The position numbers and the translations under genes were made by a program. Source: Liolophura sinensis (Eukaryota > Mollusca > Polyplacophora > Chitonida > Chitonidae). Taken from it: a DNA stretch of 64,000 bases. The stretch covers positions 4,212,373 to 4,276,372 of the forward strand of contig NC_088306.1 in the NCBI RefSeq assembly GCF_032854445.1, written 5' to 3'. Positions 19,201 to 60,592 of this stretch are shown one piece after another. Under the pieces are notes generated by a model. That model worked only from the letters and a program-made list of their open reading frames with translations. It did no database searches and was not told the origin of the DNA. Position 1 is the first letter of the stretch; each line of letters opens with the position of its first letter.

Positions 19201-22200
19201 GGGAATGTTTATCGCAAGCTCCGCCTTTCTGCCTAGCAGCTTTTCCATGTACCTCACCATGGTTGCCATGGGAGCCTGGTTCCTAGGCAACAATCAGGTA
19301 AGTGTTGTGCACTGTGTGAACATGAAATTTAAAATCTGTACTTCACAGTGAACTGTTACTAGATCATGTACCTCAAATAAACGCTTATGAATGCCTGTTA
19401 AAGTTAACCAATATCAAACACACAGACTTTTTCTTGTCCCTGACATTGGTCAAACAGTAAACGAAAGAGAAGTGAATGAAAAGTGTGTACTTTTGGGATA
19501 TCAACCCTTGGATCATTTATGTAGATTATGCCTTGCACTGTAATGTATCTACATGTACTGTTATGTTAACTTGTTGCTGCCTAGCCTGGCACTCAGCATG
19601 GAGAGTTTAGAGCAAGGAAACATGACTGGTTTGTCCTGGTGTCAGTATAATGTGACTGGGTGAGGTGTCATGCCTGGTGTGTCTTCGGCATGATACTTCA
19701 GTGCGGCAGCACTTTGACGGCATGCACTTGCCTTGCCTTGCACACAATGACTAATGACTGCTCGTCGTCATAATTGTTATGGATGACTTAAAATCCCAAG
19801 CATGCCATTCTAATGTAAAACTTTTTAACTCCAGTCAAGTGTTAAAATAGTTTCTGTGTTTTAGGTGGCCATCCTTGGTATTGCTGCCAGTGCCATACTG
19901 GGCTGGCCATTTGCAGGAATCTTGGGGTAAGGTTGATGTACAACAGCTATATCATGTCCACACTCAGTATTTATATAGTTTTTATGTTCGTTAGTTGCTA
20001 TGGTTACATTTTTACCCACTGAGTCTTTGAGTAGAATAGTTTCATTCTCAATATAATGTTGCATAAAAGCTACATTTATTAATTTGTTTATTTACTTGAC
20101 TGTTTTACGCCGTAACTCAAGAATCTTCCTTTACAGGTGAGGGAAACACTAGCATAAAGTACTGTATTTGGCCAAAAGTTTGACCTGTAAAACTGCTCTT
20201 TCATAAGCACATAAAGGCCTGATTACTTGTAAGTAAGGAAAGTAGTCAAACTTCAGAAAACATTGTCCTATTAAAGTGACTCTATAAATAGGATGTATCA
20301 AGCAGAGCTACGTGTAAGCAAAACATGAAAATTGCTTATGTAAATTACAGCAAACATCAGATAAAATGTCAATAAACAGTGTCTGAGAAAACAGTTGATT
20401 TATGTTTTTAGATAAATCAAAATTTTTTTTCAAGTGAGTAAAACACTCTCAAAACTCAAAAATAGGTTATGTGGAGAGGTTTTTATTGAGTTTTTTTTCA
20501 ATAAGAACTTTCAAAGCTAACCCTATAAGATTTGAATTTTACATAAAATGGACTGTGCCTGTTTCAGAGCTCCGATTGCCTGGGATATTGTGGTGAGGAA
20601 AAAGAAAGTCATCTTCTTTATAAAATGGTGTGTGGCTGGAGCCGTTGGGATTTTAGTAAGTCAACACAGCTTTAATTGTTCATTCATTTGGATGACCCCT
20701 AATCCACGGTTGAACTAGGTAATATTGGTGGCTCTGGTCAGCTTGAACGTTTTATACTAATTGTTCATTCATTTGGATAACCCCTAAGCCACTGTCGAAC
20801 TAGGAAATATTGGTGGCTCTGGCCAGCTTGAACATTTTATACTAATTGTTCATTCATTTGGATAAACCCTAAGCCACGGTTGAACTAGGAACTATTGGTG
20901 GCTCTGGCCAGCTTGAACATTTTATACTAATTGTTCATTCATTTGGATAACCCCTAAGTCACTGTTGAGCTAGGAAATATTGGTGGCTCTGGTCAGCTTG
21001 AACGTTTTATACTAATTGTTCATTCATTTGGACAACCCCTAAGCCACGGTTGAACTAGGAAATGTTGGTGGCTCTGGCCAGCTTGAACATTTTATACTAA
21101 TTGTTCATTCATTTGGATAAACCCTAAGCCACTGTTGAACTAGGAAATATTGGTGGCTCTGGTCAGCTTGAATGTTTTATACTAATTGTTCAGTCATTTG
21201 GTTGACCCCTAAGCCACTGTTGAACTAGGAAATATTGGTGGCTCTGGTCAGCTTGAACGTTTTATACTAATTGTTCATTCATTTGGATAACCCCTAAGTC
21301 ACTGTTGAGCTAGGAAATATTGGTGGCTCTGGTCAGCTTGAACGTTTTATACTAATTGTTCATTCATTTGGATAAACCCTAAGCCACTGTTGAACTAGGA
21401 AATATTGGTGGCTCTGGCCAGCTTGAACATTTTATACTAATTGTTCATTCATTTGGATAAACACTAATCCACTGTTGAACTAGGAAATATTGGTGGCTCT
21501 GGCCAGCTTAAGCATTTTATACTAATTGTTCATTCATTTGGATAAACCCTAATCCACTGTTGAACTAGGAAATATTGGTGGCTCTGGTCAGCTTGAACGT
21601 TTTATACTAATTGTTCATTCATTTGGATAAACCCTAAGTCACTGTTGAACTAGGAAATATTGGTGGCTCTGGTCAGCTTGAACGTTTTATACTAATTGTT
21701 CATTCATTTGGATAAACCCCTAATCCACTGTTGAACTAGGTAATATTGGTGGCTCTGGCCAGCTTTAACATTTCATACTAATTGTTCATTCATTTGGATA
21801 AACACTAAGGCACGGTTGAACTAGGAAATATTGGTGGCTCTGGCCAGCTTGAATGTTTTATACTAATTGTTCATTCATTTGGACAACCCCTAAGCCACTG
21901 TTGAACTAGGAAATATTGGTGGCTCTGGCCAGCTTGAACGTTTTATACTAATTGTTCATTCATTTGGACAACCCCTAAGCCACGGTTGAACTAGGAAATG
22001 TTGGTGGCTCTGGCCAACTTGAACGTTTTATACTAATTGTTCATTCATTTGGATCAACCCCTAAGCCACTGTTGAACTAGGAAATATTGGTGTCTAAGGT
22101 CAGCTTGAATGTTTTATACTAATTGTTCATTCATTTGGATAAACCCTAAGCCACTGTTGAACTAGGAAATATTGGTGGCTCTGGTCAGCTTGAATGTTTT

Positions 22201-25200
22201 ATACTAATTGTTCATTCATTTAGATGACCCCTAAGTCACTGTTGAACTAGGAAATATTGGTGGCTCTGGCCAGCTTGAACGTTTCATACTAATTGTTCAT
22301 TCATTTGGATAAACCCTAAGTCACAGTTGAACTAGGAAATATTGGTGGCTCTGGTCAGCTTGAACGTTTCATACTAATTGTTCATTCATTTGGATAAACC
22401 CCTAAGCCACTGTTGAACTAGGAAATATTGGTGGCTCTGGCCAGCTTGAATGTTTTATACTAATTGTTCATTCATTTGGATAAACTCTAAGCCACTGTTG
22501 AACTAGGAAATATTGGTGGCTCTGGTCAGCTTGAACGTTTTATACTAATTGTTCATTCATTTGGATCAACCCCTAAGCCACTGTTGAACTAGGAAATATT
22601 GGTGGCTCTGGTCAGCTTGAACGTTTTATACTAATTGTTCATTCATTTGGACAACCCCTAAGCCACTGTTGAACTAGGAAATATTGGTGGCTCTGGCCAG
22701 CTTGAACGTTTTATACTAATTGTTCATTCATTTGGATAAACCCTAAGCCACTGTTGAACTAGGAAATATTGGTGGCTCTGGTCAGCTTGAACGTTTTATA
22801 CTAATTGTTCACTCATTTGGATGAACCCTAAGCCACTGTTGAACTAGGAAATATTGGTGGCTCTGGTCAGCTTGAACGTTTTATACTAATTGTTCATTCA
22901 TTTGGATAAACCCTAAGTCACAGTTGAACTAGGAAATATTGGTGGCTCTGGTCAGCTTGAACGTTTTATACTAATTGTTCATTCATTTGGATAAACCCTA
23001 AGTCACAGTTGAACTAGGAAATATTGGTGGCTCTGGCCAGCTTGAACGTTTTATACTAATTGTTCATACATTTGGATAAACCCTAAGCCACTGTTGAACT
23101 AGGAAATATTGGTGTCTAAGGCCAGCTTGAATGTTTTATACTAATTGTTCATTCATTTGGATAAACCCTAAGCCACTGTTGAACTAGGAAATATTGGTGG
23201 CTCTGGTCAGCTTGAACGTTTTATACTAATTGTTCATTCATTTGGATAAACCCTAAGTCACAGTTGAACTAGGAAATATTGGTGGCTCTGGTCAGCTTGA
23301 ACGTTTTATACTAATTGTTCATTCATTTGGATAAACCCTAAGCCACTGTTGAACTAGGAAATATTGGTGGCTCTGGTCAGCTTGAACGTTTTATACTAAT
23401 TGTTCATTCATTTGGATAAACCCTAAGTCACAGTTGAACTAGGAAATATTGGTGGCTCTGGTCTACTTGAACGTTTTATACTAATTGTTTATTCATTTGG
23501 ATAAACCCCTAAGCCACTGTTGAACTAGGAAATATTGGTGGCTCTGGTCAGCTTGAACATTTTATACTAGTGAAATATCGTGACCTAAACTAAGGCGGCT
23601 TCATTTTGGACAGCTTTTTCAGACCCGCCAATTTTGGTGGCCTAAGTTAATTAAGATGGCTCGGTTTAGTCCACCATTTTTGCGGCCACAGATATGTGTG
23701 CAAATCAAGCGCTAGTTCTACTGATCAACTTGTTAACACAAGCAGCCATAAATTCGTGATCTAAAAGAACCTGGCTCCAAAGTTATGCTGGTGTAACCAT
23801 GACTGTGAAATCGTAATCACATGGGTAGATTTTATCTGTACATGTACTGTAATGACCACAAAACATCAACCCCCCGAATAATCGACCACTGGCAATCATC
23901 AATGGATATACGCAATTCCGTCCTGGGATGAATTTAATCTGTGCTGCCACAGTATGAAAATTCAGCTGATCGCATTGACTAACCTGGAGAACCTAGGTAT
24001 CTAGTGTAATAATGTCAACAGTATGCAGAGAACCAACCTTAATTATATCACGAATACTTGTGGGGGTAAACTTTTTTCTGCCGTTCTTGGTGGCTGTGTA
24101 GTTGACAACTCGCCATTTTAACTTCTGCGTTATTTACGACAAGTTTATTCAGTTGCAGTCATAATCTGCAGGATCCGCTGTTCTTACCGTCTGCTTTCTA
24201 GGCCTAGTATCTTCCCCAAATAGTATTGCAGGGGTACATGTGTGGTGACATTTACCACCGAGATTGTAGGATACAAGAACATTTAAGTTCCATCTGGGAA
24301 AATATCGTCACCTGTATATTAGTCAGTTAAATTCTTTCTGACTAAGCTTTCAGAAGGCTCAGAAAATGATGCTGGAAACACCACTTACAGATCTTTGTAC
24401 TATGTAGTGCGATAAGTGCCTCCTTCAGATTAATCAGGTCATGGGATTTGGAAGTTTTTAATGTAGGCGATGCATCTATGAATATCTCAGCCATTTTGTC
24501 TAATGCTGAAAGATGTGTTGAGACTGAAAAAGGTGATTAAAGGTTTATTTTAGAGGTAGGATGATGACTTTTTGGAAAAATTGTAAATTTCAGCAGCAGA
24601 TTGAAGATTTAATGTCCTTTATTTACCTCTGAAATGCGTTCTGTCGGGGCGAATGTGAAGGGCGAATACAGTGTTCGCACAAGATCACACTGCCTACTTC
24701 CATTTTGAAAAACGTCTGATTTCCATCTGATTGTCAAAAACCATAAAACAACCTATGTCTGATTTAGTATAGTATTGATTTAATGGTTATTCAGATGTGG
24801 CCTAAAACTTTTTCTTTTCATCTGTTTTAGGTCCCTATGGGTCATATAGATCACCACTTTTATGGGAAAATTGTAATAGCTCCATTGAACATAATCCTCT
24901 ATAATGTATTTAGTGAACATGGGGCTGATCTCTATGGTAAGTTTTCTGTTTTGTGATGTTGTTGTTGTATGTGTGTTTTCTGTCAGTTTTGTGTTCATTT
25001 TCTCTAACTTGTAAAATTAACTAAAGTTTTCTAAAGTGGAATGTTCTGGAAAAATGGCTTTAAATCTATCACAGAACCTTGATTAGTGAGTACTCGTGTT
25101 TGAATCTTGCTCTCTTTGACCTTAATCTAGGTAGCCCAAGACTGACCATGCACTGACTACTGTATAAAACAAAGCTAAAATGAAGTACTAATTCATATTG

Positions 25201-28200
25201 TTTTTTCAGGAGTGGCACCAATGTCATTTTACTTCATCAACGGTTTTCTCAATTACAACATAGCTTTCATCCTGGCCTTGGTCAGTTTACCTCTAACAGT
25301 AAGTAAACATTCTTCAGTACTGTAATTCTTCAGTACTGTAATTCTTCAGTACTGTTATTCTTCAGTACTGTAACTCTTCAGTACTGTAATTCTTCAGTAC
25401 TGTAATTCTTCAGTACTGTTATTCTTCAGTACTGTAACTCTTCAGTACTGTAATTCTTCAGTACTCTAATTCTTCAGTACTGTAATTCTTCAGTACTGTA
25501 ATTCTTCAGTACTGTAATTCTTCAGCCTTATTGCATGTTCCGAAGGCATTATTCAGTATTAACTGATAAAATTAGGCTTTTTTTAAAGCCCTGACACTGG
25601 CCAATCCAAGTAGTGTAGTTTTGTCTCCAAAATCAAATGTGGCTTCATAGTTTGCACTGAAAGTTGCTCTTTCATATGAGAAAAGATTGAGGAATGAGGG
25701 TATCAGTGGTTTCCCTGATGACAACATAGACTTCATCTTGGCCTGCTCAGTTTACCATTTAAAACTCTAAGTAGGAATCCTCTCCGGCCATACGTGGGAA
25801 GGTCTGCAGCAACCTGCAGATGGTCATGGGTTTCCCCTGGGCTCTGCCCGGTTTCCACCCACCATAATGCTGGCCGCTGTCGTATAAGTGAAATATTCTT
25901 GAGTACGGCGTAAAACACCAATCAAATAAATAAATAAATCTAAGTAGGAAATATGCAGATGGGCTCACTGACTATGGTTTCCTTGTCTACAACATAAATT
26001 TGATCTTGGCCTAATCAGTCAAACCGTAAGGACGATATGCAAAAGGAGTCACTATCTGTGGTTTCCTTGTCTACAACATAAATTTGATCTTGGCCTAATC
26101 AGTCAAACCGTAAGGACGATATGCAAAAGGAGTCACTATCTGTGGTTGCCTTGTCTACAACATAAATTCGATCTTGGCCTAATCAGTCAAACCGTAAGGA
26201 CGATATGCAAAAGGAGTCACTATCTGTGGTTTCCTTGTCTACAACATAAATTTGATCTTGGCCTAATCAGTCAAACCGTAAGGACGATATGCAAAAGGAG
26301 TCACTATCTGTGGTTGCCTTGTCTACAACATAAATTCGATCTTGGCCTAATCAGTCAAACCGTAAGGACGATATGCAAAAGGAGTCACTATCTGTGGTTT
26401 CCTTGTCTACAACGTAAGGTTACCCAGGGCACTTGGGGTTTCCTCGACCCCAAAATCCCATAGATGTGAAAGTGCAAACTATAGCATAATAGGAAAGTTT
26501 AAACTTTTTTCTATCACCAAATTCAGGTAAAAAATTCTTACTGTACCTTGTGACTTGTCAGTGACGTTAGGAAACCCTTTTTTGATTACATACTAGTATA
26601 CTATGTTTAGAGTAGACGAACGATGGTGAAAATTAGCATCTGAACATTTGTGAACTTCAGAAGATTTATTTGTATATCTTGAGACAGGTGTTTGGTAAAG
26701 TAATGTCACCAAAACTTGTTTAACATACTTGACAAGTCACATGATGCAATAAGGCTTGTCGGTCTGCCTACCCATACAGAGCTTCGTACAACAAAACTAC
26801 TAACCTAACCAACATCCACCACCCCCCACAATAAAAGAAGGGGGCGGGGCAGATGTTGGTTAGTAGCAGTCATTGCGCTGCACTGGCATGTTAACCACCT
26901 CTGCCATACAGGGCTTCATACATCAAAACTACTAACCAACATTCCCCCCCCCCTTTTATTGTGGGGGGTGGCGGACGTTGGTTGGTAGTTTTGATGTATG
27001 AAGCTCTGTATGGCAGAGGTGGTTAAAATGCAAGTGCAGCGCAATGACCGAGGAGCCTCTCACCAATGAGTTTCTTGTTTTGTTTTTCCTCTTCCTGTAC
27101 AGTTTTGTGTTGGACGATTGGTGAAGACTTCAACCAGAAGTGAGTATAAATCCAAGGTAGAATATAATTTTAAACAGTGTACAACAATCCTATAATGGTT
27201 AATCTTTAAATCTGAATTTAAAATCATGAAAATGTTTGGTCCGCTGTCACATGCTTCCTGTTTGGTTTGCTGTCACAAGCTTCCTGTTTGGTTTGCTGCC
27301 ACGTGTTCCTCTTTGGTCTGCTGTCACAAGCTTCCTGTTTGGTTTGCTGTTACGTGCTTCCTGTTTGGTTTGCTGTCACGTGCTTCCTGTTTGGCCTGCT
27401 GTCACGTGCTTCCTGTTTGGTTTGCTGTCACATGCTGCCTGTTTGGTTTGCTGTCACATGCTTCCTGTTTGGTCTGCTGTCACGTGCTTCCTGTTTGGTC
27501 TGCTGTCACATGCTTCCTGTTTGGTCTGCTGTCACGTGCTTCCTGTTTGGTCTGCTGTCACGTGCTTCCTGTTTGGCCTGCTGTCACATGCTTCCTGTTT
27601 AGTCTGCTGTCACATGCTTCCTGTTTGGTTTGCTGTCACATGTTTCCTGTTTGGTCTGCTGTCACGTGCTTCCTGTTTGGTCTGCTGTCACATGCTTCCT
27701 TTTTGGTCTGCTGTCACGTGCTTCCTGTTTGGTTTGCTGTCACGTGCTTCCTGTTTGGTCTGCTGTCACTTGCTTCCTGTTTGGTCTGCTGTCACATGCT
27801 TCCTGTTTGGTTTGCTGTCACGTGCTTCCTGTTTGGCCTGCTGTCACGTGCTTCCTGTTTGGTTTGCTGTCACATGCTTCCTGTTTGGTCTGCTGTCACA
27901 TGCTTCCTGTTTGGTCTGCTGTCACGTGCTTCCTGTTTGGCCTGCTGTCACGTGCTTCCTGTTTGGTTTGCTGTCACATGCTTCCTGTTTGGTCTGCTGT
28001 CACAAGCTTCCTGTTTGGTCTACTGTTACGTGCTTCCTGTTTGGTTTGCTGTCACGTGCTTCCTGTTTGGCCTGCTGTCATGTGCTTCCTGTTTGGTTTG
28101 CTGTCATGTGCTTCCTGTTTGGCCTGCTGTCACGTGCTTCCTGTTTGGTTTGCTGTCACATGCTTCCTGTTTGGTTTGCTGTCACATGCTTCCTGTTTGG

Positions 28201-31200
28201 TCTGCTGTCACGTGCTTCCTGTTTGGTCTGCTGTCACATGCTTCCTGTTTGGTCTGCTGTCACGTGCTTCCTGTTTGGTTTGCTGTCACGTGCTTCCTGT
28301 TTGGTCTGCTGTCACTTGCTTCCTGTTTGGTCTGCTGTCACGTGCTTCCTGTTTGGTTTGCTGTCACATGCTTCCTGTTTGGTCTGCTGTCACATGCTTC
28401 CTGTTTGGTTTGCTGTCACATACTTCCTGTTTGGTCTGCTGTCACATGCTTCCATATTAAAATCATAAGCTAATTATTAGTTACATGATTACTCAGCAAC
28501 AGGATAAGCAAATATATGGCGTTAGTAATTCTCATATGTCTTCACAACCCAACAAAGGGAGATAACCTACCCAGCAGACACATTTGACATCTGCAGGATT
28601 CAAGAATATATCTGTACCCCCATGTGACGGTTATTGGCCAATGAAAAGTGCAGTATTTTGTCTGATGCGGGATAATAATCTGGGTATGCTCTTGTGTTTG
28701 TCTGGCACATGTTGCTTTTCATGCAATGACTGCTCCAAGTATCAGCTTACCCTCAGTGCAGTTTTGAGTGCAGGCTCATTTTGTGAAACCTCAGGCTATG
28801 TTGAAGAGCAGCTCAATCCTCAAGAAGTACTGTAACTTTTGGACATATAGTGTTTTCTGTATGATTCCCATTGATGTTGATTTCAGTGAGGTTATTGCTC
28901 CAAATTTTGTCCTGTGTGCAGTTTTATTTTCTGTAGCCTCAGATTAAGTTTGAAAGCAGTTGGTTTTAATTTATTTATCATGTTTTCCATCCAACCTTAT
29001 TTCGTTCATGCTGTCTGACTTGTGGACTTTTTCTTGCCATGTCTCCAAAAGCTATTTGCCAAACGTAAAAGAGAGGACAACAAATAATATAACCTGACTT
29101 CAGGAAGAGAAGTGGATGGAGACCCAAAAGCCAGGAGTCATTTTTTTCTGATGTGCTCGGCAACTCTATAAATTAATTTTTAATCTGGAATTCTTACGAG
29201 GCCATGGGATGCGCCATGATGAAGGAACTAGGAACATGTAGTCTCGTCGCTCCCATGCACATATTGTTAAAAGGCAAATCAGGGTTCAGGGGGAGTATGC
29301 ACAAACAGCTGTGTTTTCAGGTTATAGAGATAGCTCGCAACTGATTGGTCAGACTGATAACATTGTGGCACTTTTGATTTTCTCATTATTTGTCATCGTC
29401 ATATGACTGAAAAACTGTGAAGTATGACGTTAAACCCCGAGCACTCACTCACTCACTCTCATTACTTGCTGTTGGTTTGGACTGTGATTTCTCGGTTATG
29501 GAACATTACAAAGACAAAAGGTTATGTTTATTAATATGCGTGTGAGATTCTTTATCAGCACATACATGTACATACTGTTAGCCTTTTGTTGTGTTTTCTT
29601 TTAATAACTGACTTTGATTTGAAGCTCAGTGATATGGTCCTTGAGAAGTGAACAAGCTTTTCAGGTGTTTTATTGGTGCTATATAAAGGAGTGTTTTTGG
29701 TTTTTATCCACAGGTAGTCAGCTGCCTCTGTGGCTTAGCCTCCTACCTATGTATATTTGGATTTTGATCTTCTTCACAAGATCTCATAAGGTGAGAGCAA
29801 TCAGCAGATTGTCATGGGTTTTCCCCTAGGCTCTGCCCGTTTTCCTCCCACCATAACGTTGGCTGTCATTGTACAAGTGAAATATTCTTGATCAAACTGT
29901 AAAGCACAAAGTGAAATATTATTTCTTGCCTCAGTGCAAATACAGTTATAAACCATCCCAATGTTTTGTATTCATTCCAGTTAGATTGCCAAAAAGCAGT
30001 TGACAGAGATCAAATGGCCACTATTTTATTCAGGCAGTGTTACATAAAGTTTGCTTGAGATCATTAGCTCACTTTTACTTAAATTAGTATGTCACATAAT
30101 CTACATGTATGGGAAAGGATGTCTTGGTTGGTTAGTTGTTCCCTCTATTCTGAAACCTGACCATCTATTAGAAACATGAGTGTTGTGGAAGTTAATTTCT
30201 GGATGTAAATATGCGAATGATTTAAGACAGCATAGTGACATGCTCTTCAAGTCTGATACCGAGTAGACACCATCTTACAGTGTCACAGCTGTCCGCTTAT
30301 TTTGAGTTGTCGAAAATGGGATGGCTGGCTGTTTTTGATTCTGTTCTGATTAAATCATATTCTTTTGGTAATTTTTGCCTGGTTTTGTTTTTCAGGAAGA
30401 GAGGTTTTTATTCCCTATTTACCCATTTTTTGCTTTGGCTGCTGCGCTGTGCGTGGATTACGTCCAGGTATGTGGCCCACAGCAGCATGATACTGTTTTG
30501 GTAAATGTCAAAGGTCACTCCAGACACTACAGTTTACTCCAGACACTACAGTTTACATCCAGACATTACAGTTTACTCCAGACCCTACAGTTTTCTCCAG
30601 GCCCTACAGTTTACTTCAGACATTACAGTTTACTCCAGACCCTACAGTTTTCTCCAGGCCCTACAGTTTACTCCAGACATTACAGTTTACTCCAGACATT
30701 ACAGTTTGCTCCATGCAATAAGCCCAATAAACCTGACTGCCTTTATATCCGTGAAAACACCAATCAATCAATCAATCAGTTCAAAAGTCTTCATACAGAA
30801 GATTTTTTCTGTAACAAATATGTTACATGAAACTTATGTTATTGCATCTTGGCCTAGTGATTAGTTGACTAGCGCATCGCAGTGACCCAGGAGCCTCTCA
30901 CCTATGCAGTCACTAAGTCCAGCCACTGCTGTCTTCCTTCCAGGGCATACGTAGTTAGGCCTGGCGGCAAGCTGCGGATGGTGCTGGGTTTCTCCCAGGT
31001 TCTGCCCGGTTTCTACCCACCATAATGCTGGTTGCCATGATATAAGTGAAATAATCTTGCGTATAGAGTAAAGCACCAATCAAATAAATAAATACAAATT
31101 TGAAAGTGGATGTTCTGAAGGTTTCTTTTTTTTTCCTTTTCTCCTTTCTTTCTCCTTTGAGTTTTGTTGAATTTCATTTAGTTGTAGACATTCTGTTTGA

Positions 31201-34200
31201 AATAGCAGATTTTATGTATTCTGTAATAATTTCAGGCAATACTGTTCTAATTTCATACTTTTGGTGCTATTTTTGAGACATTTTAACGCAATTTCAAGAT
31301 GATTTCGTGGATTTTCAGACTTTTTTCTCTCAGAATCTAGAGAATCTTATCAGAAACTGAGGAAGACTTCTTTGGACAAAAATCGTATCTTTTGTATTTT
31401 TTCAGAAGCTGTATACATTCCTTACTCCCAGAACTGCTTATAGTCATTACACAGAAAAAAGTAACTGGATTGCCATAGCAACAGGCATCATATTTGCAGT
31501 GTTGTCAGTGTCCAGATCTGTGGCACTGTACCAAGGTAAGCACAGTCTACATCAAGGTAAGCATAGTCGACATCAAGGTAAGCACAGTCTACATCAAGGT
31601 AAGCACAGTCTACATCAAGGTAAGCACAGTCTACATCAAGGTAAGCATAGTCGACATCAAGGTAAGCACAGTCTACATCAAGGTAAGCATAGTCGACATC
31701 AAGGTAAGCACAGTCTACATCAAGGTAAGCATAGTCGACATCAAGGTAAGCACAGTTTACATCAAGGTAAGTATAGTCGACATCAAGGTAAGCACAGTTG
31801 ACATCAAGGTAAGCACAGTCGACATCAAGATAAGCACAGTGTATCAAGGTAAGCAACCAGCCCAGATAGCACGGTTGGTAGAGCGTCCGTTTTGGGACCG
31901 GTAGATCCAGGATCAATCCTTGATCGGGTCACACCTGAGACTTTAAAAGAGGAAGTTGAAACTTCCTCGCTTGGCGTTCAGCATGAAGGGGATAGTGCAA
32001 CGACTGGTTGACCCGTATCAGTATAATGGCTCGGGTGGGGCGTCTTACTTGCCTCCGGTAAGTCAGTCTCAGTGAAGCAGCACTAAATAAAAGAGCGGTG
32101 GAAATCCGTCCTGCAACAAGGAGGCACATTACACGTACATGCACCCTAATGATTCCTTCGTCGTCATATGACTGAAAAATTGTTGAGTACGACGTTAAAC
32201 CCCAAGCACTCACTCACTCAAGGTAAGCACAGTCGACATCAAGGTAAGCACAGTTGACATCAAGGTAAGCACAGTCTGCATCAAGGTAAGCACAGTCTGC
32301 ATCAAGGTAAGCAGATTCTACATCAAGGTAGGCTGAGTCTACATTAAGGCTCATGAAAGTTATGTGAGAAAGCGTTAGGGACTTAAATGGTTTGATGCTC
32401 TGAGGACAGTTTTGTGGGGATTTGTGTCTCTAAATGCAGTCAGGGTTCTTAAAAAATCAGGTAAGCGCCACAGAAATGCCCTGTCTGGAAAGCTGAAATT
32501 TACAGAAATGCAAGGAATAGACTACCACTAACGGCGACTCAAAAGTAGGCATTTCCTTTGCTGTAACCGTAGGGGTAGAAATGTTTTTAACCATGCTGTT
32601 TGTTATGAAGTAAATCATGTGGTCTCCATGCTGTCTTATAGACATGACAGAATGTCTGCATAAGGCCCTAGTTATGGGGAGGGGGGCGGGAGGGGATTGT
32701 CAGGCACCTAGCAGAAAACAAAACCAGATTATTTGATCAGTTTATACTCTGAGAGATCAATGAAATGATTAAGCTATCAACTCCCACATCTGTACCATTA
32801 AATTTTCTAAAGTATCTTACTTCTCAGTCTGCACCATTTTCAGTCAGTCAGCTGCTCCTGTTAATGAATCATGTTTCAGTCTACCTGTACCCCAATTTCA
32901 CAGTCAGTCAGATGTTATTCTCTTCAGTCTCCATTCACATCTGTTTTATGCAAACCTCATTTTGTACTCTTCTCTCACTTCTACCTGAGTCAACAAAATC
33001 AGCCTCCTCAATTCTGTCACTCTTCTACTGTAGGTCATTGAGTGGTACGTGCTCATGGTAGGAGCTCAGTAACTTTTCATTTGTTTTAAGCCTTAGTCAC
33101 TGTCAATCAATCTGTCACCCATTTCTGTTAACTCCTCCCACTGACAGGTTACCACGCCCCTCAGGATATCTTCCTGGAGCTGACAAAGGTCATGTCTGAC
33201 CCACATATCCACACCATGCCCGCGGACCGACCCGTCAATGTCTGTATCGGCAAGGAGTGGTACCGCTACCCCAGCAGCTTCTTCTTACCTGCAAAACAGT
33301 GAGTCCAGTACGATATTCATGTCAAAGCTGTTTGTGTTGGGTAATACCATCTACCCACTGAAAAACCCATCTGCCCTATCGACCTAAAGTTTTATTATTA
33401 AAATCCGGCCCCATTTGTGGAATTGGACTCAGCATTTTAACATTTGACTTTTTTTTTTTTTATATTTGTTTCATGTGAAATGTAAGTCTGTATTAAGGAA
33501 TCATGAATTTATCATGAAATCTGGTGTTTGGAGGGGAATTCTTTATTAAATAATTTCTGGAATCACTTTCACATATAAATGTTATAACTGTTATGCTTTA
33601 GAATGTACTCCAGACAAATTGAAGAAAAAAAAAAATAATGAAACATGCCTACCAGAAATTCACAAACTTAATTTCTTACACCATGTGATGTTCGTGTATT
33701 TTACAGCGTATGCCATCAACAGTAAAACATAATAAATAAACCAATATATAAATAGAGTCTCCTCTGTCAGAAGATTTCTGAACTTTTTCCATAAATAGCC
33801 CTCACTGCCCCTATCTTTGCCACTGCTGTAGCCAATGGCAATAAACACAGGTTATACACAGTCATCATTTAGTCAGATGCATATTGTAGAGACAGTATCT
33901 GACCAGAAGACCAACACGTCGCTGTGAGTTCAAGTCCAGGTCATGCTGGCTTCCTCTCCGGCTGTATGTGGGAAGGTCTGCCAGCAACCTGCGAATGGTC
34001 GTGGGTTTCACCGGGTTCTTCCGGTTTCCTCCCACCATAATGCTGGCCGCCGTCGTATAAGTGAAATATTCTTGAGTACGTCATAAAACACCAATCAAAT
34101 AAATAAATAAATCAGAAGAGCACCACATGATATTGGTCATTATAGCGGATCTTTCTGTATTACCCAATAGTACCCTAATTCCTGTTCGCTTATGAAAAAA

Positions 34201-37200
34201 CTACATTAGTTGGATTGTCCAGTTTCAGAACTTCACAGTATAATTTGATCAGTCTACACAGAATAATACCTTCAGATTATGCTAGAATAAACAACTTGTG
34301 ATACATGCGAAAAGTTTGAAGAATAACAGTAGTTCTGCCATGATATGGCTGTAATTCTGGCAATGCGGCATTAAGGCACGGTCATTAATGTATTCCTGAT
34401 TGTTCCATAGTTAAGTTTCGATAGCAACACAACTGTTTTTTGTTGGAACGGACTGTTTCAGTTGGCACTTGCGCTTCATTCAGTCAGAGTTCAAGGGTCA
34501 GCTGCCAAAACCATACGGAGAAGAACCTGATGCGACTTCAAGGATACCAGAAAACATGAACGATATGAACCTGGAGGAACCCTCCAGATATGTAAGTATG
34601 TGTACTGGATGTAATAAAGAACCCTCCAGATATGTAAGTACTTGTACTGGATGTCATAAAGAACCCTCTGAATATGTAAGTGCATGTACTGGATGTCATA
34701 AAGAACCCTCTGAATATGTAAGTACATGTACTGGATGTCATAAAGAACCCTCTGAATATGTAAGTACATGTACTGGATGTCATAAAGAACCCTCTGAATA
34801 TGTAAGTACATGTACTGGATGTCATAAAGAACTCTCTGAATATGTAAGCACTGGAACCATCATGTATAGAAATATAAAGAATCCTCCAGATATGTGAGTA
34901 CTGTAAGCATTCATCTATTATTAGTGATGTTAGAGCCCTTCAGATGTGTGAGTACTGCAAGCATTCATCTATTATTAGTGATATATGTAGGGGAGCACTA
35001 AAACCATATGTCTTGTATGTGAGACAAGCAGGAAAGTTTTAGACACAATTCATTGACATCAGCAATGCAGTGTTTGTTGTCACTTTATACATGAACTTTT
35101 CAGATATAGGAGAATTGAGATGTGTGATATCAGTATCACATTATTCTGAGTGAAGTCAGTCTGCAACATGCAACAAGTTTGTCAATGACTTGCCAAAGGC
35201 CGTTGGTTTATTCTGAACACTCTGATTGTCTTCAGCCATGACAGTTACATGTACCAGCATCATATACATGTGTATGTGAAATAAGGGGCCTCTGTGGCAG
35301 ACGGGGTTAGCACGACAGTACGACACAATGACCTCTCTTCCTCTCTCAAGTCTCTGGCCGTACGTGGGAAGGCCTGCCCGCAACTTTCGGATGGTCGTGG
35401 GTTTTCCTTGGGCTCTGCCCAGTTTCCTTTAACCATAATGCTGGCTGCCGTTGTATAAGTGAAATATTTTTGAGGACAGGGTAAAACCCCAATCGAATAA
35501 CATGAGATACCAATCAGTCAGCCAGTTAATCTGCCAGTCAACATATAACTCTTCTGAACTCTTCAGACTGTTGCAAATAATTTCAGACAAACATCAGCAA
35601 ATGTCATTACCTGGTGGATTTAGACCTGCCGGAAGAGTCGGTGCTTCAGCCTCGCTTCTCACAGGAGAAAGACAAATGGAAGATCCTCGCGTCTTATCCA
35701 TTCCTGGACAACAGCAGGTAAGATCTGGTGTCAGGAAAATCCACTCAGGCATGTCAGGACAGTTCCGTAGGACCTGGTACTGACTGCCGGAATCAAAAAA
35801 AACGGTCGTACACTTGAGTCAGATATAGCCTGAACTTGTGGTATTATTCATGAGCTTAAGTCCATACGTTCATGCAAATTTTTAATTTTGTGATAAATGT
35901 CATTCACCACACGAAGTATTAAAATAAACATTTCTAAGGTACCGTAAATCTTCAACCTTTTCAACCACGAAAGCACTTCTTTCATTGGAGTTTAAGCATA
36001 CAGTTATTATCAAAATGGTGCTAAAATAATTTGTTTGTGTCACTAGAGATACAAGCTTTATAAAACAGTGCAAATTAGGTTGTCTACACCCCATTAACTC
36101 TCATTCACAGAATGTTTCAAAATATTGGTTATGAAGACAGACTAAAGGTTGTAAGTCTCAGTTTTAGTGCAGTGAACTGTTTTGAAATGAAGATAAAGTC
36201 TGCCGTAAGTCCCAAAGGGCTTTGCGATCCTGGTGCCAGTACCTCTCAAAAAGTCATGACAATAGCATCCTCCATAACCTAGAGTTGCAACTTGTGCAAA
36301 GTAAAGTCTTCAAAGAAATCGTAAAGATTTCACCAGTCCTTTACAAAGGGAAGCAAACCTTGTAACTAATGAAACAGCAGTGCCCTCTACCTACTTGAAA
36401 AACAATATCAGTTACATACTCCTTACAGCGCATACATCACTCTCCAGCCTTTCTCTTTGCATCACTGCCACCATCAGCGAGGTCACTGGGTCACAGTGAT
36501 GAGGCAGGAAGCGATGTCGAAAAACACAATCAATCCGTCTGAACCTTTGTGTCTGATAATAATTATTACCCATGCATTCTGTTTATGTAAACTATGTACA
36601 ACATGATTCTAACCAACACCTAAAGCAGTATTATTGATGAATGCTGATTAAATAGTCCCGCAAAAGGACACCAGTGATGAGGCTAAGTCTAAGCAAGCCT
36701 ACGTGCACCCCACAGACTCCAAGGGTCAAACTTGTCTAGTGATGGCGGTGATGTGAAGCAAAAGGTAGAGAACAACACATGCTATTAGGAGTATGTATCA
36801 GTTGTTTCAGTAACAATTCAAGTGATCATAGCTGGCATTGTTATTCTAGTAGGTAGACAGCACTGTTCTTTCATCCGTCACAAGATTTGCCTCCCTTTAC
36901 AAAGGGCTTGGGAGCCCATTTTCACTGAGTAAACTCCTTTTTTATCTTCACTTAAAAAGAAAGAACACAACCTATTCTTCAAATGAAGGAGCTATACAAA
37001 CTGTAGATTTTTTTTTTGTTTAGATTTTTAAAGTTTTTGTAAGAGAAAAAAAAGCGGTTATAAACATTGTCATTTTCTACCACATCCACAGAGTCTAGGC
37101 ACCTTATAAGTTCTGTCATGTTTTAGGCTTATCTAACGAAAAGCCACCTTTCCTCCTGTTGATAATTCATTGTGACATCACTGGGCTTAAGGGTTTACTC

Positions 37201-38120
37201 CCACCATAGGATTAACGTGTATTTCCAGGCTCAGCTAAATATGTATGCATATCATTATAATTAGGGATTTTAAGGTCATGTAGTTGAGGGTCACGTCATG
37301 CCTACATGTGTGGCTGTAGACTGCCAAAATGGGTCTGGAATGCCATACCCTGAAGAGCCACTGGGCAAAGCTAAGCATGATGATGTATGTAATCTGTTTA
37401 AATGGCAGCCTAAAGAAGACTTCTAAGCTTGACTGTTTTGCATGTTTAACTGTTAAATACTCAAATAACAAGCACTGCTGGCAGAAAAGTGAGATATTTT
37501 ATTTAGCCTTAAGTATAGGTCATTTGTTTTAAGGTATAGGTAGTATAAATGTGTTATTTTCTTTAAAGTCTGAGATGTGCATCACAGCCAGCTGGCAAGT
37601 GGGATCTCATCATTTATCTGTCTGATACTCTGCTACCTGATGAATTATAGTGCCGTTCAGAACACCCCAGCTGATTATCCCTGCACGAATGAAGCAGATG
37701 GAACCAATCAAACTCTGAGGTTTGACTGTGAGTCTAAGACAGGAGGTTTGTCATGTATCTTGGAAAGGACTGCAGTTTACCCTGAGCAACCTGGTTTCCT
37801 CTCCCAAAATCTGACTCATTATAAGAGAAAAATTCTAAAGTATGGATTTGACTTCGATGAAATAATCAAATAAACCATTGAGAATCTAAACCTTGGCAAT
37901 TTCACCAAATCTGTTCACCTGAACTTTCAAACAAATTTGTACCTGTGGCCTTCTTTTTTTTTCCTTTTGCAGGTCTAACAGATTTTTTAGGGCTTTCTTC
38001 ATTCCGTTTGTTTCTGCCAAATACTGCTCGTATGTGGACTACAACCTGCTGAGGACCAAGCGCACAAAGAGAGCCAGTAAAGCCAACAGTGCCCAGAAAT
38101 CGCGCAGCACTGCCAGGTAG
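13160..38120 (+). CDS. ALG9: ALG9 alpha-1,2-mannosyltransferase, complete 17-exon gene
   Basis: ER multi-pass GT22 enzyme that adds two alpha-1,2 mannoses from dolichyl-phosphate mannose to the lumenal lipid-linked oligosaccharide for N-glycosylation. Exons: 13160-13248, 15187-15319, 16644-16778, 18276-18346, 19135-19297, 19865-19926, 20568-20655, 24831-24936, 25210-25298, 27103-27139, 29714-29790, 30396-30467, 31406-31535, 33148-33298, 34462-34591, 35587-35717, 37973-38120. They sum to 1812 nt, 603 residues; human ALG9 is 611. All introns are GT-AG and phases agree at every junction. The GT22 acidic motif DCDETFNYWEP is at residues 64-74. LQTWEYSPVYAIRSY, YFINGFLNYN, EERFLFPIYP, VNVCIGKEWYRYPSSF and MNDMNLEEPSRY align with human ALG9 as remembered. 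Introns hold 13 or more SINEs, MITEs and arrays; the donors of exons 13 and 15 are tandemly amplified (see findings). AATAAA at 38523 may be the poly(A) signal. Confidence 0.95.
13765..14358. mobile_element. Tc1/mariner-like MITE in ALG9 intron 1
   Basis: 594 bp with terminal inverted repeats of about 45 bp (GATGGACTCAGTGT..., sharing TTCTGACATTCATC) and a TA dinucleotide at both outer junctions (13763-13764 and 14359-14360). It has no coding capacity. The TA target duplication and TIRs point to Tc1/mariner mobilisation; family not verified. Confidence 0.7.
14408..14819. mobile_element. Mutator-type MITE, copy A (ALG9 intron 1)
   Basis: 412-bp non-coding element. The left end CATACTGCTTACAGTGCATT and the right end ...GCGCTGTAGGGAGTATG are inverted repeats of about 50 bp sharing GGTAGAGAGCGAC. 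It is flanked by 9-bp direct repeats GCTAAAAAT (14399-14407) and GCTAAAGAT (14820-14828). Homologous copies lie at 36415 and 39372. Long TIRs with 9-bp target duplications are the hallmark of Mutator-like elements. Confidence 0.85.
14863..15080 (+). mobile_element. SINE-A, tail truncated (ALG9 intron 1)
   Basis: Has the head (GGTTAGCGCGTTAACA, TGACCCAGGAGCCTCTCACC), the B-box region (GTGAGTTCAAGTCCAGCTC) and the body up to CCATAATGCTGGCCACCATC. The usual tail is replaced by ATACAAGAACAATAAG. Confidence 0.85.
15187..15319 (+). CDS. ALG9: ALG9 exon 2 (GT22 acidic motif)
   Basis: Completes codon 30 and encodes residues 31-74. It includes YTAFKTFLSARLCAAVW (start of the first membrane segment; human TAFKCLLSARLCAALL) and the conserved DCDETFNYWEP. 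Acceptor ATCTTTCAG, donor CCA|GTAAGT. A second acceptor at ATTATCAG (15204) would drop six codons and shift the phase. Confidence 0.93.
16056..16330 (+). mobile_element. SINE-A with internal triplication (ALG9 intron 2)
   Basis: Head and tail are typical (GACCCAGGAGCCTCTCACCA; ACACCAATTGGATAAATAAA). The central segment TTCTCCCAGGATCTGCCCGG is present about three times in tandem at 16180-16250, where other copies have it once. Confidence 0.85.
16440..16490 (+). repeat. SINE-A-like tail scrap
   Basis: GTGTGCTAAACGCCAATCAA followed by ATAAATA resembles a SINE-A 3' end. Nothing else of the element remains. Confidence 0.4.
16644..16778 (+). CDS. ALG9: ALG9 exon 3
   Basis: Residues 75-119, phase 0 at both ends. 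Contains GLQTWEYSPVYAIRSYTYL, one of the most conserved ALG9 blocks, and ends in FIFQSNK, the counterpart of human RILQTNK. Donor AAG|GTAAGT. Confidence 0.96.
17335..17720. repeat. Dispersed repeat block, ALG9 intron 3
   Basis: GATACTTCAGTG-CAGCAGCACTTTG at 17357-17386 recurs at 19690-19720 in intron 5. Within the block, CTATAACTCCAACGGTTTTC (17510) has a second copy, CTACAACTCCAACTGTTTTC (17684). Family unknown. Confidence 0.5.
17860..18130 (-). mobile_element. SINE-B copy (ALG9 intron 3)
   Basis: The reverse complement aligns with the better copy at 31857-32217 over the body: AGAGGAAGTTGGAGCTTTCT, AGTATAATGGCTCGGGCGGG and GAGCGGTGGAAATCCGTCCT. The characteristic tail is lost. Confidence 0.8.
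18276..18346 (+). CDS. ALG9: ALG9 exon 4
   Basis: Residues 120-142 plus two bases: IVLFYVLRCVLAICCALSEV, a membrane segment (human ILVFYFLRCLLAFVSCICEL), then YFYK completed in exon 5. Donor CAA|GTGAGT. Confidence 0.95.
18505..18870 (-). mobile_element. Fold-back repeat family, copy 1 (ALG9 intron 4)
   Basis: At 18731-18868 two arms of about 60 bp (TTAGTTACATGGTTACTCGG... and its reverse complement) flank a 17-bp loop. The neighbouring 18505-18640 segment (TTCATTGGCCAACTGCGGTC, GTAGGTTATCTCCCTTTGTT) is the reverse complement of sequence at 28555-28680 in intron 10. The two loci are therefore copies of one element in opposite orientation. Confidence 0.75.
19135..19297 (+). CDS. ALG9: ALG9 exon 5
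   Basis: Completes codon 143 and encodes residues 144-197: GVCKQFGANTGRIMLCFLLF then STGMFIASSAFLPSSFSMY, matching the human STGMFCSSSAFLPSSFCMY block. Donor CAG|GTAAGT. Confidence 0.96.
19865..19926 (+). CDS. ALG9: ALG9 exon 6
   Basis: Residues 198-217 plus two bases: VAILGIAASAILGWPFAGIL, matching human IAVLGVAAGAILGWPF. Donor GGG|GTAAGG. Confidence 0.96.
20083..20137 (-). repeat. SINE-A tail scrap (ALG9 intron 6)
   Basis: TTTACTTGACTGTTTTACGC then CGTAACTCAAGAATCTT is the reverse strand of a SINE-A 3' end. The rest of the element is missing. Confidence 0.6.
20568..20655 (+). CDS. ALG9: ALG9 exon 7
   Basis: Completes codon 218 and encodes residues 219-247: APIAWDIVVRKKKVIFFIKW then CVAGAVGIL. 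Donor TTA|GTAAGT. A long minisatellite begins 16 bp after the donor. Confidence 0.94.
20671..23568. repeat. 85-bp minisatellite in ALG9 intron 7 (about 34 copies)
   Basis: 2.9 kb of tandem 85-bp units, each with ATTGTTCATTCATTTGGATA, CACTGTTGAACTAGGAAATA, TTGGTGGCTCTGGTCAGCTT and GAACGTTTTATACTA. Copies differ mainly at a few recurrent sites (GAACGTTT, GAACATTT, GAATGTTT; GGTCAG, GGCCAG). There is no open frame through the array. It starts 16 bp after the exon 7 donor. Confidence 0.97.
23569..24830 (+). other. Remainder of ALG9 intron 7
   Basis: 1.26 kb of apparently single-copy intron between the minisatellite and exon 8. No element or RNA gene was recognised. Confidence 0.5.
24831..24936 (+). 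CDS. ALG9: ALG9 exon 8
   Basis: Residues 248-282 plus one base: VPMGHIDHHFYGKIVIAPLN then IILYNVFSEHGADLY, matching human DSYYYGKLVIAPLNIVLYNVF. Donor ATG|GTAAGT. Confidence 0.96.
25210..25298 (+). CDS. ALG9: ALG9 exon 9
   Basis: Completes codon 283 and encodes residues 284-312: VAPMSFYFINGFLNYN then IAFILALVSLPLT. Donor ACA|GTAAGT. The second half of this exon, with its donor, appears to be the source of the 84-bp intronic array at 25700-26420. Confidence 0.96.
25309..25527. repeat. 16-bp minisatellite (ALG9 intron 9)
   Basis: About 13 units of ATTCTTCAGTACTGTA with single-base variants. It begins 11 bp after the exon 9 donor. Confidence 0.95.
25700..26420. repeat. 84-bp array derived from exon 9, with SINE inserted
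   Basis: Five near-identical 84-bp units lie at 25975-26415, preceded by a more divergent unit (about 25700-25770) that is split by a SINE. Each unit contains GGTTTCCTTGTCTACAACAT then ATCTTGGCCTAATCAGTCAA and CCGTAAGG. Exon 9 reads GGTTTTCTCAATTACAACAT then ATCCTGGCCTTGGTCAGTTT and ACAGTAAG at the same spacing. The split unit (GACAACATAGACTTCATCTT, GGCCTGCTCAGTTTACC) is closest to the exon. In the five regular units the exon frame is lost (TAA after GCC), so they look like exon ghosts rather than functional alternatives. Confidence 0.8.
25766..25950 (+). mobile_element. 5'-truncated SINE-A with 12-bp target duplication (ALG9 intron 9)
   Basis: The element is 25778-25938, starting in the mid-body (TCCTCTCCGGCCATACGTGG) with an intact tail. 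It is flanked by exact TCTAAGTAGGAA repeats (25766-25777, 25939-25950). It splits the first unit of the exon-9-derived array, so the array is older than the insertion. Confidence 0.93.
26783..27050. repeat. Nested inverted repeats with poly-C/G core (ALG9 intron 9)
   Basis: CATTGCGCTGCACTGGCATG...AACCACCTCTGCCATACAGG (from 26871) pairs with CCTGTATGGCAGAGGTGGTT-like sequence ending with GTGCAGCGCAATGACC at 27050. The arms are about 90 bp and meet at a C-rich/G-rich centre (26941-26974). A second, shorter palindrome of the same sequence (26783-26868) precedes it. Both contain the TTTTATTGTGGGGGG motif. Part of the arm is a SINE-A-like head. Confidence 0.8.
27003..27070 (+). repeat. SINE-A head fragment 33 bp before ALG9 exon 10
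   Basis: GGCAGAGGTGGTTAAAATGC, GCAATGACCGAGGAGCCTCT and CACCAATGAG correspond to the SINE-A head. It stops just before the pyrimidine tract TTTCTTGTTTTGTTTTTCCT of the exon 10 acceptor. Confidence 0.75.
27103..27139 (+). CDS. ALG9: ALG9 exon 10 (37-bp micro-exon)
   Basis: Residues 313-324 plus one base (FCVGRLVKTSTR). Length and phase are right to join exons 9 and 11. Acceptor CTTCCTGTACAG, donor GAA|GTGAGT. Sequence conservation is low, as in the corresponding human loop, so support comes from splice sites and phase. Confidence 0.85.
27234..28456. repeat. 26-bp minisatellite (ALG9 intron 10, about 47 copies)
   Basis: 1.2 kb of 26-bp units of the form TGCTGTCACGTGCTTCCTGT + TTGGTC. Nearly every unit has CACGTG or CACATG, followed by CTTCCTG. 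Because 26 is not a multiple of three and no frame of the unit has a stop, long open frames of up to 415 codons arise in all three plus-strand frames; they are not genes. Confidence 0.97.
28470..28690 (+). mobile_element. Fold-back repeat family, copy 2 (ALG9 intron 10)
   Basis: TTAGTTACATGATTACTCAG and the following segment to 28680 (AAAGGGAGATAACCTACC, TATTGGCCAATGAAAAGTGC) match the reverse complement of copy 1 at 18505-18870. Confidence 0.75.
29385..29460 (+). repeat. SINE-B tail fragment (ALG9 intron 10)
   Basis: CGTCATATGACTGAAAAACT, GTATGACGTTAAACCCCGAG and (CACT)n are the 3' end of SINE-B (compare 32160-32218). Confidence 0.85.
29714..29790 (+). CDS. ALG9: ALG9 exon 11
   Basis: Completes codon 325 and encodes residues 326-350: SQLPLWLSLLPMYIWILIFF then TRSHK (human YWLTLAPMYIWFIIFFIQPHK). 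Donor AAG|GTGAGA. A SINE fragment follows within a few bases. Confidence 0.96.
29797..29910 (+). mobile_element. 5'-truncated SINE-A starting at +7 of ALG9 intron 11
   Basis: GCAGATTGTCATGGGTTTTC, CTCCCACCATAACGTTGGCT and GTGAAATATTCTTGATC match the body and tail of SINE-A. The element begins right after the donor hexamer GTGAGA. Confidence 0.8.
30396..30467 (+). CDS. ALG9: ALG9 exon 12
   Basis: Residues 351-374, phase 0 at both ends: EERFLFPIYPFFALAAALCV then DYVQ (human EERFLFPVYPLICLCGAVAL). Donor CAG|GTATGT. Confidence 0.97.
30516..30714. repeat. 19-bp minisatellite (ALG9 intron 12)
   Basis: About ten units of ACTCCAGACATTACAGTTT with variants (GACCC, GGCCC, TTTTC). It starts about 48 bp after the exon 12 donor. 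Confidence 0.93.
30850..31094 (+). mobile_element. SINE-A (ALG9 intron 12)
   Basis: Near full length but diverged: CAGTGACCCAGGAGCCTCTC in the head, CCACCATAATGCTGGTTGCC in the body and CACCAATCAAATAAATAAAT as tail. Confidence 0.88.
31406..31535 (+). CDS. ALG9: ALG9 exon 13
   Basis: Residues 375-417 plus one base, with TEKSNWIAIATGIIFAVLSV then SRSVALYQ (human TVTSNWLALGTVFLFGLLSFSRSVALFRG). The end is set at the first of a series of CAAG|GTAAGC donors because it gives the human-like junction YQ-GYH. Every later donor in the 21-bp array is in the same phase, up to the unit with a stop at about 31800. Confidence 0.94.
31536..31856 (+). repeat. 21-bp splice-donor array (ALG9 intron 13)
   Basis: Fourteen 21-bp units, one 19-bp unit and a final partial copy. 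Each complete 21-bp unit is GTAAGC + ACAGTCTACATCAAG with variants (TCGAC, TTGAC, GTAAGT). Every unit boundary is a CAAG|GTAAG 5' splice site; there are 15 before the SINE-B insertion. The unit resembles the exon end itself (GCACTGTACCAAG versus GCACAGTCTACATCAAG), so the array probably arose by duplication across the exon-intron boundary. In the exon frame the units read GKHSLHQ or GKHSRHQ. The frame is open until unit 13. Confidence 0.95.
31857..32217 (+). mobile_element. SINE-B, full length, inserted in the donor array
   Basis: The tRNA-like head has GCACGGTTGGTAGAGCGTCC (A box) and a B-box-like GGATCAATCC. A body of about 250 bp follows, with AGTATAATGGCTCGGGTGGG and GAGCGGTGGAAATCCGTCCT. 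The tail is GAGTACGACGTTAAACCCCA then (CACT)n. Such tails occur in bivalve and gastropod SINEs (recollection). The 21-bp array resumes at 32218, so the insertion postdates the array. Confidence 0.9.
32218..32345 (+). repeat. 21-bp splice-donor array, continuation
   Basis: Five further CAAGGTAAGC junctions and a diverged CAAGGTAGGC continue the array from before the SINE-B insertion. Confidence 0.93.
33148..33298 (+). CDS. ALG9: ALG9 exon 14
   Basis: Residues 419-467 plus partial codons at both ends. Contains GYHAPQDIFLELTKVMSDPH, then RPVNVCIGKEWYRYPSSFFL (human RPVNVCVGKEWYRFPSSFLL), in the lumenal C-terminal part. Donor ACA|GTGAGT. Confidence 0.97.
33903..34123 (+). mobile_element. 5'-truncated SINE-A (ALG9 intron 14)
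   Basis: Starts in the B-box region (CGCTGTGAGTTCAAGTCCAG) and has a complete tail. It is flanked by similar CAGAAGACC and CAGAAGAGC repeats that look like a target duplication. Confidence 0.9.
34462..34591 (+). CDS. ALG9: ALG9 exon 15
   Basis: Completes codon 468 and encodes residues 469-511: WHLRFIQSEFKGQLPKPYGE then ENMNDMNLEEPSRY (human DMNDQNLEEPSRY). The first donor TAT|GTAAGT is chosen because exon 16 continues TNISKCHYLVDLD as human IDISKCHYLVDLD does. Six more in-phase donors follow at 42-bp steps. Confidence 0.95.
34592..34893 (+). repeat. 42-bp exon-end plus donor array (ALG9 intron 15)
   Basis: Six 42-bp units, each 27 bp of intron start (GTAAGTACATGTACTGGATG + TCATAAA) and a 15-bp copy of the exon end (GAACCCTCTGAATAT, exon GAACCCTCCAGATAT). 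A seventh, altered unit follows. Donors GTAAG lie at 34592, 34634, 34676, 34718, 34760, 34802 and 34844, all phase 0. The exon frame stays open, adding VSTCTGCHKEPSEY-like 14-residue units with a CTGC motif. Confidence 0.96.
34894..34985. repeat. Two-copy 52-bp tandem repeat (ALG9 intron 15)
   Basis: GTGAGTACTGTAAGCATTCA then TCTATTATTAGTGAT is repeated once at about 34946 (GTGAGTACTGCAAGCATTCA). It follows directly on the 42-bp array and again begins with a donor-like GTGAGT. Confidence 0.85.
35170..35283 (+). repeat. SINE-C fragment (ALG9 intron 15)
   Basis: AAGTTTGTCAATGACTTGCC, AAAGGCCGTTGGTTTATTCT and GAACACTC recur at 51855-51910 and, in part, at 51215-51265. This defines a third SINE-like family here. 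Confidence 0.6.
35284..35503 (+). mobile_element. SINE-A (ALG9 intron 15)
   Basis: Starts GGGGCCTCTGTGGCAGACGG, lacks part of the B-box region, and has the body CCATAATGCTGGCTGCCGTT and tail ACCCCAATCGAATAA. Confidence 0.85.
35587..35717 (+). CDS. ALG9: ALG9 exon 16
   Basis: Residues 512-554 plus two bases: TNISKCHYLVDLDLPEESVL then KDKWKILASYPFLDNS (human SKCHYLVDLD... EEWISLAYRPFLDAS). Donor CAG|GTAAGA. Confidence 0.96.
36415..36795. mobile_element. Mutator-type MITE, copy B (ALG9 intron 16)
   Basis: 381 bp from CATACTCCTTACAGCGCATA to ...TATTAGGAGTATG, TIRs about 50 bp, flanked by TATCAGTTA (36406-36414) and TATCAGTTG (36796-36804). Homologous to copies A and C. Confidence 0.87.
37770..37880 (+). 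repeat. Decayed SINE-like segment (ALG9 intron 16)
   Basis: GAGCAACCTGGTTTCCTCTC, then ATAAGAGAAAAATTCT and ATAATCAAATAAAC in SINE-A order. A 98-codon open frame (37577-37873) overlaps it and is not considered a gene. Confidence 0.4.
37973..38120 (+). CDS. ALG9: ALG9 exon 17 (C-terminus and stop)
   Basis: Completes codon 555 and encodes residues 556-603, then TAG at 38118. NRFFRAFFIPFVSAKYCSYV then DYNLLRTKRTKRASK matches human LLRAFYVPFLSDQYTVYVNYTILKPRKAK. It ends in a basic tail, as in the family. Confidence 0.96.
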
Positions 38121-44821: not shown

Positions 44822-44855
44822 CTGGCAACATACACAAAAAGCAAATCGTAAAATA

Positions 44856-45078
44856 TTTTATTTACTTATTTGTTTGATTGGCGTTTTACGCCGTACTCAA
44901 AAATATTTCAATTATGTTGGGAGGAAACCCGATAGAGCCCAAGAAAACCCACGACCATTCATAGGTTGCTCACAGATCTTCCCACGTAAAGCCGGAGAGG
45001 AAGCCAACATGAGCTGGACTTGAACAAGGGGGTCACCTGGGTCATTGCGCCGTGCTGGCGTGCAAACCCCCTCGGCTA
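44856..45078 (-). mobile_element. SINE-A in the intron just before GAL3ST gene 2 exon
   Basis: Same orientation as the gene. Body CTTTACGTGGGAAGATCTGT, tail ACGCCAATCAAACAAATAAG. It ends about 35 bp before the acceptor, so the branch point probably lies in or at the edge of the SINE tail. Confidence 0.88.
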
Positions 45079-60531: not shown

Positions 60532-60592
60532 TTTTATGCAGAGATTTTTCTGTAAGCCAACGAGCAGATCTGAAAGATATTTCTCTCTCGTC

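Follow-up and report, generated by a model that had tools for sequence, protein, structure and literature searches.

When the end of an exon and its 5′ splice site are repeated in tandem into the following intron, each copy in the frame of the exon, are the additional donors used? This question is raised by ALG9 in the chiton Liolophura sinensis, where the initial annotation of the window (the whole stretch of 64,000 nucleotides that was analysed) placed such an array at the end of exon 15 and read it as a potential ladder of protein isoforms. The gene comprises 17 exons (13160-38120), and all 16 introns are of the GT-AG type. The joined exons encode the deposited L. sinensis protein (P0001) without a difference (603 of 603 residues); similarity alone did not reveal the short exon 10, which was located via this protein. 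The product matches the family profile Glyco_transf_22 (PF03901, E 5e-116), and its closest solved structure, 9s6s, is ALG9 itself (E 4e-216) and the sole solved relative at E 1e-20. In this 17-exon model the exon number 15 given by the initial annotation is correct. The donor of exon 1 (13249, GAG/GTTATT) is the weakest of the 16 (leave-one-out score 1.55), yet it agrees with the deposited protein.

The end of exon 15 (34591) reads GAACCCTCCAGATAT. GTAAG donors stand at 34592, 34634, 34676, 34718, 34760, 34802, and 34844, in exact 42-bp steps and all in phase 0, exactly where they had been described. Each unit consists of 15 bases of the exon end and 27 bases of the intron, and GTAAG is found in all seven. 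The claim that the last five exon codons are copied before each donor also stands, the pattern GAACCCTCNRRATAT being exact before six of the seven donors and the seventh copy, GAACTCTCTGAATAT, having one mismatch. With a TRF score of 460, 6.5 copies, and 95% matches, the array is not due to chance. Unit 7 diverges after GTAAGC, and the two copies of the tail that follows are alike at 45 of 54 bases, with their donors 54 bp apart. The array has the anatomy of a donor-spanning minisatellite, including the authentic donor and carrying a donor in each unit; it is slightly longer and messier than first described, and the description is otherwise right.

Table 1. Positions of ALG9 features and tandem arrays in the window
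Feature	Position	Strand	Remark
85-bp array, starting 17 bases into intron 7; not a donor copy	20673..23569	+	p 0.40
16-bp array, starting 10 bases into intron 9; possible origin in the donor region	25309..25525	+	p 0.048, one among several tests
Decayed copy, within intron 9, of the end of exon 9 with its donor	25702..25773	+	score 69; maximum of 300 shuffles 38; matched by 0 of 200 random windows
84-bp array with a likeness to the exon 9 end; every unit has an out-of-frame GTAAGG	25975..26417	+	
26-bp array, starting 93 bases into intron 10	27233..28453	+	
19-bp array, starting 49 bases into intron 12; not a donor copy	30517..30713	+	p 0.76
ALG9 exon 13	31406..31535	+	
21-bp array across the exon 13 donor (CAAG/GTAAGC...)	31532..31855	+	
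21-bp array, resumed past an insert of ~360 bp	32218..32349	+	
ALG9 exon 15	34462..34591	+	joined exons equal P0001
Seven 42-bp units (15-base exon-end copy, then GTAAG donor and 27-base intron part)	34577..34870	+	
Authentic intron 15 donor, TAT/GTAAGT, the one in the deposited protein	34592..34597	+	
Six more in-frame donors, 34634 to 34844, the last being GTAAGC	34634..34849	+	
Decayed tail, the exon end in two 54-bp copies, each with an out-of-frame GTGAG donor (34894, 34948)	34881..34988	+	
ALG9 exon 16, acceptor partner of the exon 15 donors	35587..35717	+	

The reading frame is open from exon 15 up to a TGA at 34895-34897. Splicing in silico from donors 1 to 7 to exon 16 gave proteins of 603, 617, 631, 645, 659, 673, and 687 residues, and the natural C-terminus was reached in frame from all seven, which bears out the claim that the frame continues through six added units. 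Both GTGAG donors of the tail broke the frame in the same procedure. The motif CTGC (CxxC) is present in units 1-6 and absent from unit 7; the proposal that added CxxC motifs could matter for the protein is right about the motif, and its functional part has no support beyond it.

The differences between the units hint at the direction in which the array grew. Units 1 and 2 carry CCAGATAT, encoding EPSRY as in many ALG9 homologues, while units 3-7 carry CTGAATAT, encoding EPSEY (ELSEY in unit 7). Since EPSRY is kept in units 1 and 2, and R510 and Y511 do not vary across all 41 aligned homologues, unit 1 would be the original exon end, of which an altered copy was later multiplied. Compared with units 1-2, units 3-6 (34661-34843) have TGA in place of CAG, three adjacent transitions. 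By a hand count up to the point where unit 7 diverges, eight codons change from one unit to the next, six of them with a change of residue; as most differences change the residue, restraint on the peptide is not apparent from the units, though the changes are few.

Exon 13 is a second case of a donor array in ALG9, and exon 9 a decayed third. The initial annotation had announced another boundary amplification in the gene with a unit divisible by three, and this was confirmed at exon 13, with a unit of 21 bp. Thirteen of its donors, from 31536 to 31788, are in frame when spliced to exon 14, the 14th lies after a stop, and the 15th lacks GT. The insert that splits this array (31856-32217) is perhaps a SINE, judged by eye; ARAGORN calls no tRNA in it. 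We rejected divisibility by three as a sign of selection, such a period being shared by six of 19 arrays that were hand-picked from the TRF list, with overlapping or small rows merged or omitted. In intron 9, two of the three stretches of the 84-bp array resembled the exon 9 end more than all 300 shuffles did and the third equalled their maximum, a weaker likeness than that at 25702-25773. We compared 14 of the 16 donors (those of exons 1 and 10 were left out) with their own introns, searching the first 2 kb of long ones: no random window of 200 matched as well for exons 9, 13, and 15, against 9 of 200 for exon 3, 26 of 200 for exon 8, and at least 78 of 200 for the other nine. No clear copy was found for any of 15 acceptors, a set without exon 10 and with the exon 17 probe one base off; the lowest count was 11 of 200 random windows.

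The deposited protein gives a hint of donor use: in it EEPSRY is followed directly by TNISK, and VALYQG by YHAPQ, the products of the first donor at the exon 15 and the exon 13 array, respectively. Among the 120 matches listed of 2640, no other entry is from Liolophura. The published annotation drew on RNA from five tissues, and RNA of digestive gland, foot, gill, gonad, and heart is published for the species (PMC11068029); P0001 may be just the model that a predictor preferred. A search for the ladder region returned none of 3088 candidate proteins at E 0.001 or better, in a database of predicted proteins, which cannot exclude a ladder. Insertions were absent from all 41 aligned homologues, both where exon 15 meets exon 16 and where exon 13 meets exon 14. 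These were 41 of the 120 listed proteins with the repeat-bearing P0016 and P0018 left out, and another alignment that included those two showed none at the exon 15-16 junction. A structure prediction (mean pLDDT 84.2) places this junction after the last long helices, with residue 511 in a bridge, 512-513 in a turn, and 514-516 in a short helix. A loop insertion would be thinkable in this model, though it would adjoin the invariant residues.

A preference for the first donor has no obvious cause in its sequence. Over positions -3 to +6, donors 1-6 do not differ (TAT/GTAAGT), and donor 7 is GTAAGC, so sequence alone leaves the preference unexplained, which counts against the reading that we favour below. 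By analogy, DOK7 may count against it as well: there the intron-proximal of two donors is preferred, which is also the stronger one (PMC5585400). Within the donor core, defined as GTAAG and the four exon bases before it, one of 27 columns varied, compared with 17 of 57 elsewhere (Fisher p 0.009, edge units dropped; 2 of 27 versus 32 of 57 and p 1e-5 with edge units included), where the columns are not independent and the copies were recognised partly via the core itself. Other nine-base blocks were equally constant at 11 of 42, 5 of 21, and 6 of 21 positions. The low variation, as if later donors had been kept, is a weak hint. We also considered RNA structure that would hide the later donors and rejected it as too weak (z -2.1; 1 of 100 shuffles folds as well).

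The exon 15 array is of a known kind, of which we found descriptions for two human genes. Intron 18 of ABCA7 holds a VNTR with a 25-bp repeat that includes the exon 18 donor, and its units start with the donor GT (PMC5954066). The gene is linked to the risk of Alzheimer's disease, and its array has ~12 to 427 units between people; the isoform that retains one unit amounts to 2 ± 1%, a figure unaffected by array length, more exon 19 is skipped with a longer array, and the alternative forms jointly exceed the canonical one in some brain samples (PMC5954066). ABCA7 resembles the chiton gene in that the array begins at the authentic donor and has a donor per unit, with the first donor canonical in ABCA7; it differs in its unit of 25 bp, which is not divisible by three, so that retention breaks the frame. 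In CBS, a 31-bp VNTR at exon 13, c.1444_1467+7(16_21), has 16-21 copies (PMC2630376), and more units are reported to reduce activity (PMC5188458). Like the chiton unit, that of CBS unites an exon end (24 bases, from its name) with an intron start (7 bases) in many tandem copies; unlike it, the CBS unit of 31 bp is not divisible by three, and its copy number varies between people. Later donors of CBS are used in RNA. The chiton array provides an invertebrate example that, compared with ABCA7 and CBS, is in frame and free of stops, so that leakage would show as a longer protein and not as decayed RNA.

The same gene has an in-frame repeat at an exon edge in Gigantopelta aegis, for which both a long and a short isoform are deposited. 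ALG9 X1 (P0018) has seven extra 17-residue blocks (GTEPVSFYLVNGFVCFT-like) at residues ~284-402, where the counterpart of exon 9 begins, and X2 (P0013) lacks them. X1 looks like the product of an in-frame array on the acceptor side, as deduced from the protein, and would be the mirror image of the chiton case, from which it differs in the exon, the side, and the 17-residue unit. The deposited ALG9 of Owenia fusiformis (P0016) repeats several stretches that match whole exons.

We consider it probable that the exon 15 array is a donor-spanning minisatellite from which splicing proceeds mainly at the first donor, with slight in-frame leakage. Judging from the unit series, a tandem duplication would have captured 15 bases at the end of exon 15 together with 27 at the start of the intron, and slippage or unequal exchange would then have multiplied the altered copy (the EPSEY units). 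The spliceosome would mainly pick 34592, the exon end with the conserved EPSRY, as the deposited protein suggests; later copies would be removed with the intron and hence be tolerated. If a later donor were used now and then, whole 14-residue blocks would be added and the protein left intact, because the unit is 14 codons long and stop-free; the frame is seen directly, and the use is our inference. By analogy with ABCA7, which points to minor later-donor use and not to a ladder, such use would amount to a few percent or less.

The ladder of the initial annotation would require meaningful use of the later donors, with some effect on the C-terminal domain. It would add one to six blocks at exon 15 and one to 12 at exon 13, or up to 7 x 13 = 91 proteins as a matter of arithmetic only. 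The frame kept from all seven exon 15 donors and, at exon 13, from 13 of the first 15, the match of the later donors to the first, the less variable donor core (weakly), and the deposition of Gigantopelta X1 beside X2 all speak for it; the deposited L. sinensis protein without blocks, the empty search, the 41 homologues without insertion, and the invariant residues at the junction speak against it, and we think it unlikely. The gene, exon, anatomy, and in-frame potential that had been claimed stand, whereas production of the ladder finds no support in the first-donor protein or in the search, which gave no hit among the candidates; the evidence speaks against a prominent ladder, and a rare, low-level one is possible, unproven. 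A very improbable alternative is that the array aids the first donor without being spliced, many U1-binding sites raising U1 density at a weak donor or shielding the nascent RNA. The exon 15 donor was indeed the lowest of 15 by a profile from which exons 13 and 15 were withheld, and donors are intact in all seven copies, but by the fairer leave-one-out scoring it ranked third lowest of 16, the exon 13 donor was middling, and donors near arrays were not significantly weaker (p 0.12). The same p value led us to reject the idea that weak donors attract arrays.

Hardly any weight falls on intron gain by tandem duplication (the Rogers model), in which the copies would provide new AG and GT sites for a new small intron. 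Duplications with AGGT have created introns elsewhere (PMC4974935), and as in that process splice signals were copied here, with CAG just before the donor in units 1 and 2. In the chiton, however, every copy is within the same pre-existing intron, no new intron with a duplicated AG/GT was seen, and the exon 16 acceptor has no clear upstream copy (39 of 200 random windows were as good). A length of 42 bp is also short for an animal intron. An error of the assembly in copy number appears just as remote. Tandem repeats are known to cause assembly errors, which counts for such an artefact; the units, however, can be told apart from each other, and the assembly is built from PacBio HiFi reads at 14x with a mean length of 8,347 bp, enough to span the 294-bp array (PMC11068029). 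It was first published under the name L. japonica, since corrected to L. sinensis (PMC12441733).

Beyond exon 15, arrays begin less than 100 bp from the donor in six of the 16 ALG9 introns (7, 9, 10, 12, 13, and 15). We compared eight of the ten TRF loci with random placements, dropping 32204-32349, which continues the exon 13 array, and 37501-37541, which has 2.0 copies. Four of the eight arrays start within 20 bp of a donor (expected 0.31, P 0.0003), five within 50 bp (expected 0.56; 0 of 4000 placements had as many), and six within 100 bp (expected 0.98, P 0.0003). As for acceptors, no array end lies within 100 bp of one, and the expected count of just 0.86 allows no claim of a deficit. Thresholds and test were chosen post hoc, after the pattern had been seen, and cover eight of ten loci in a single gene; we therefore grade the clustering as a lead only. 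As candidates for donor copies, the arrays of introns 7 and 12 were rejected, as they did not stand out from 500 shuffles (p 0.40 and 0.76), so the lead concerns place more than copied donors. In the open PMC literature we found no report of arrays clustering at donors or of repeats in ALG9; what is new is that several introns of one gene start with such repeats, which would be surprising if it held genome-wide.

It is conceivable, though we rather doubt it, that minisatellites arise preferentially at 5′ splice sites in L. sinensis, a donor-tied factor promoting local tandem duplication. Candidate factors would be U1 or spliceosome-bound nascent RNA, R-loops, or the donor motif itself. Introns would then repeatedly begin with arrays, some of them including the donor and able to lengthen the protein in frame. 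If the clustering holds genome-wide, minisatellites would arise in connection with splicing or transcription, which can be tested on the existing assembly.

Some arrays in the window are very long, namely those at 20673-23569 (85 bp x 34), 27233-28453 (26 bp x 47), and 62927-63958 (49 bp x 21). ALG9 is flanked on both sides by open reading frames on the minus strand that match galactose-3-O-sulfotransferase (PF06990) (43540-44865 and 5191-6477), and an open reading frame with a THAP domain (PF05485) lies on the plus strand at 60521-61048.
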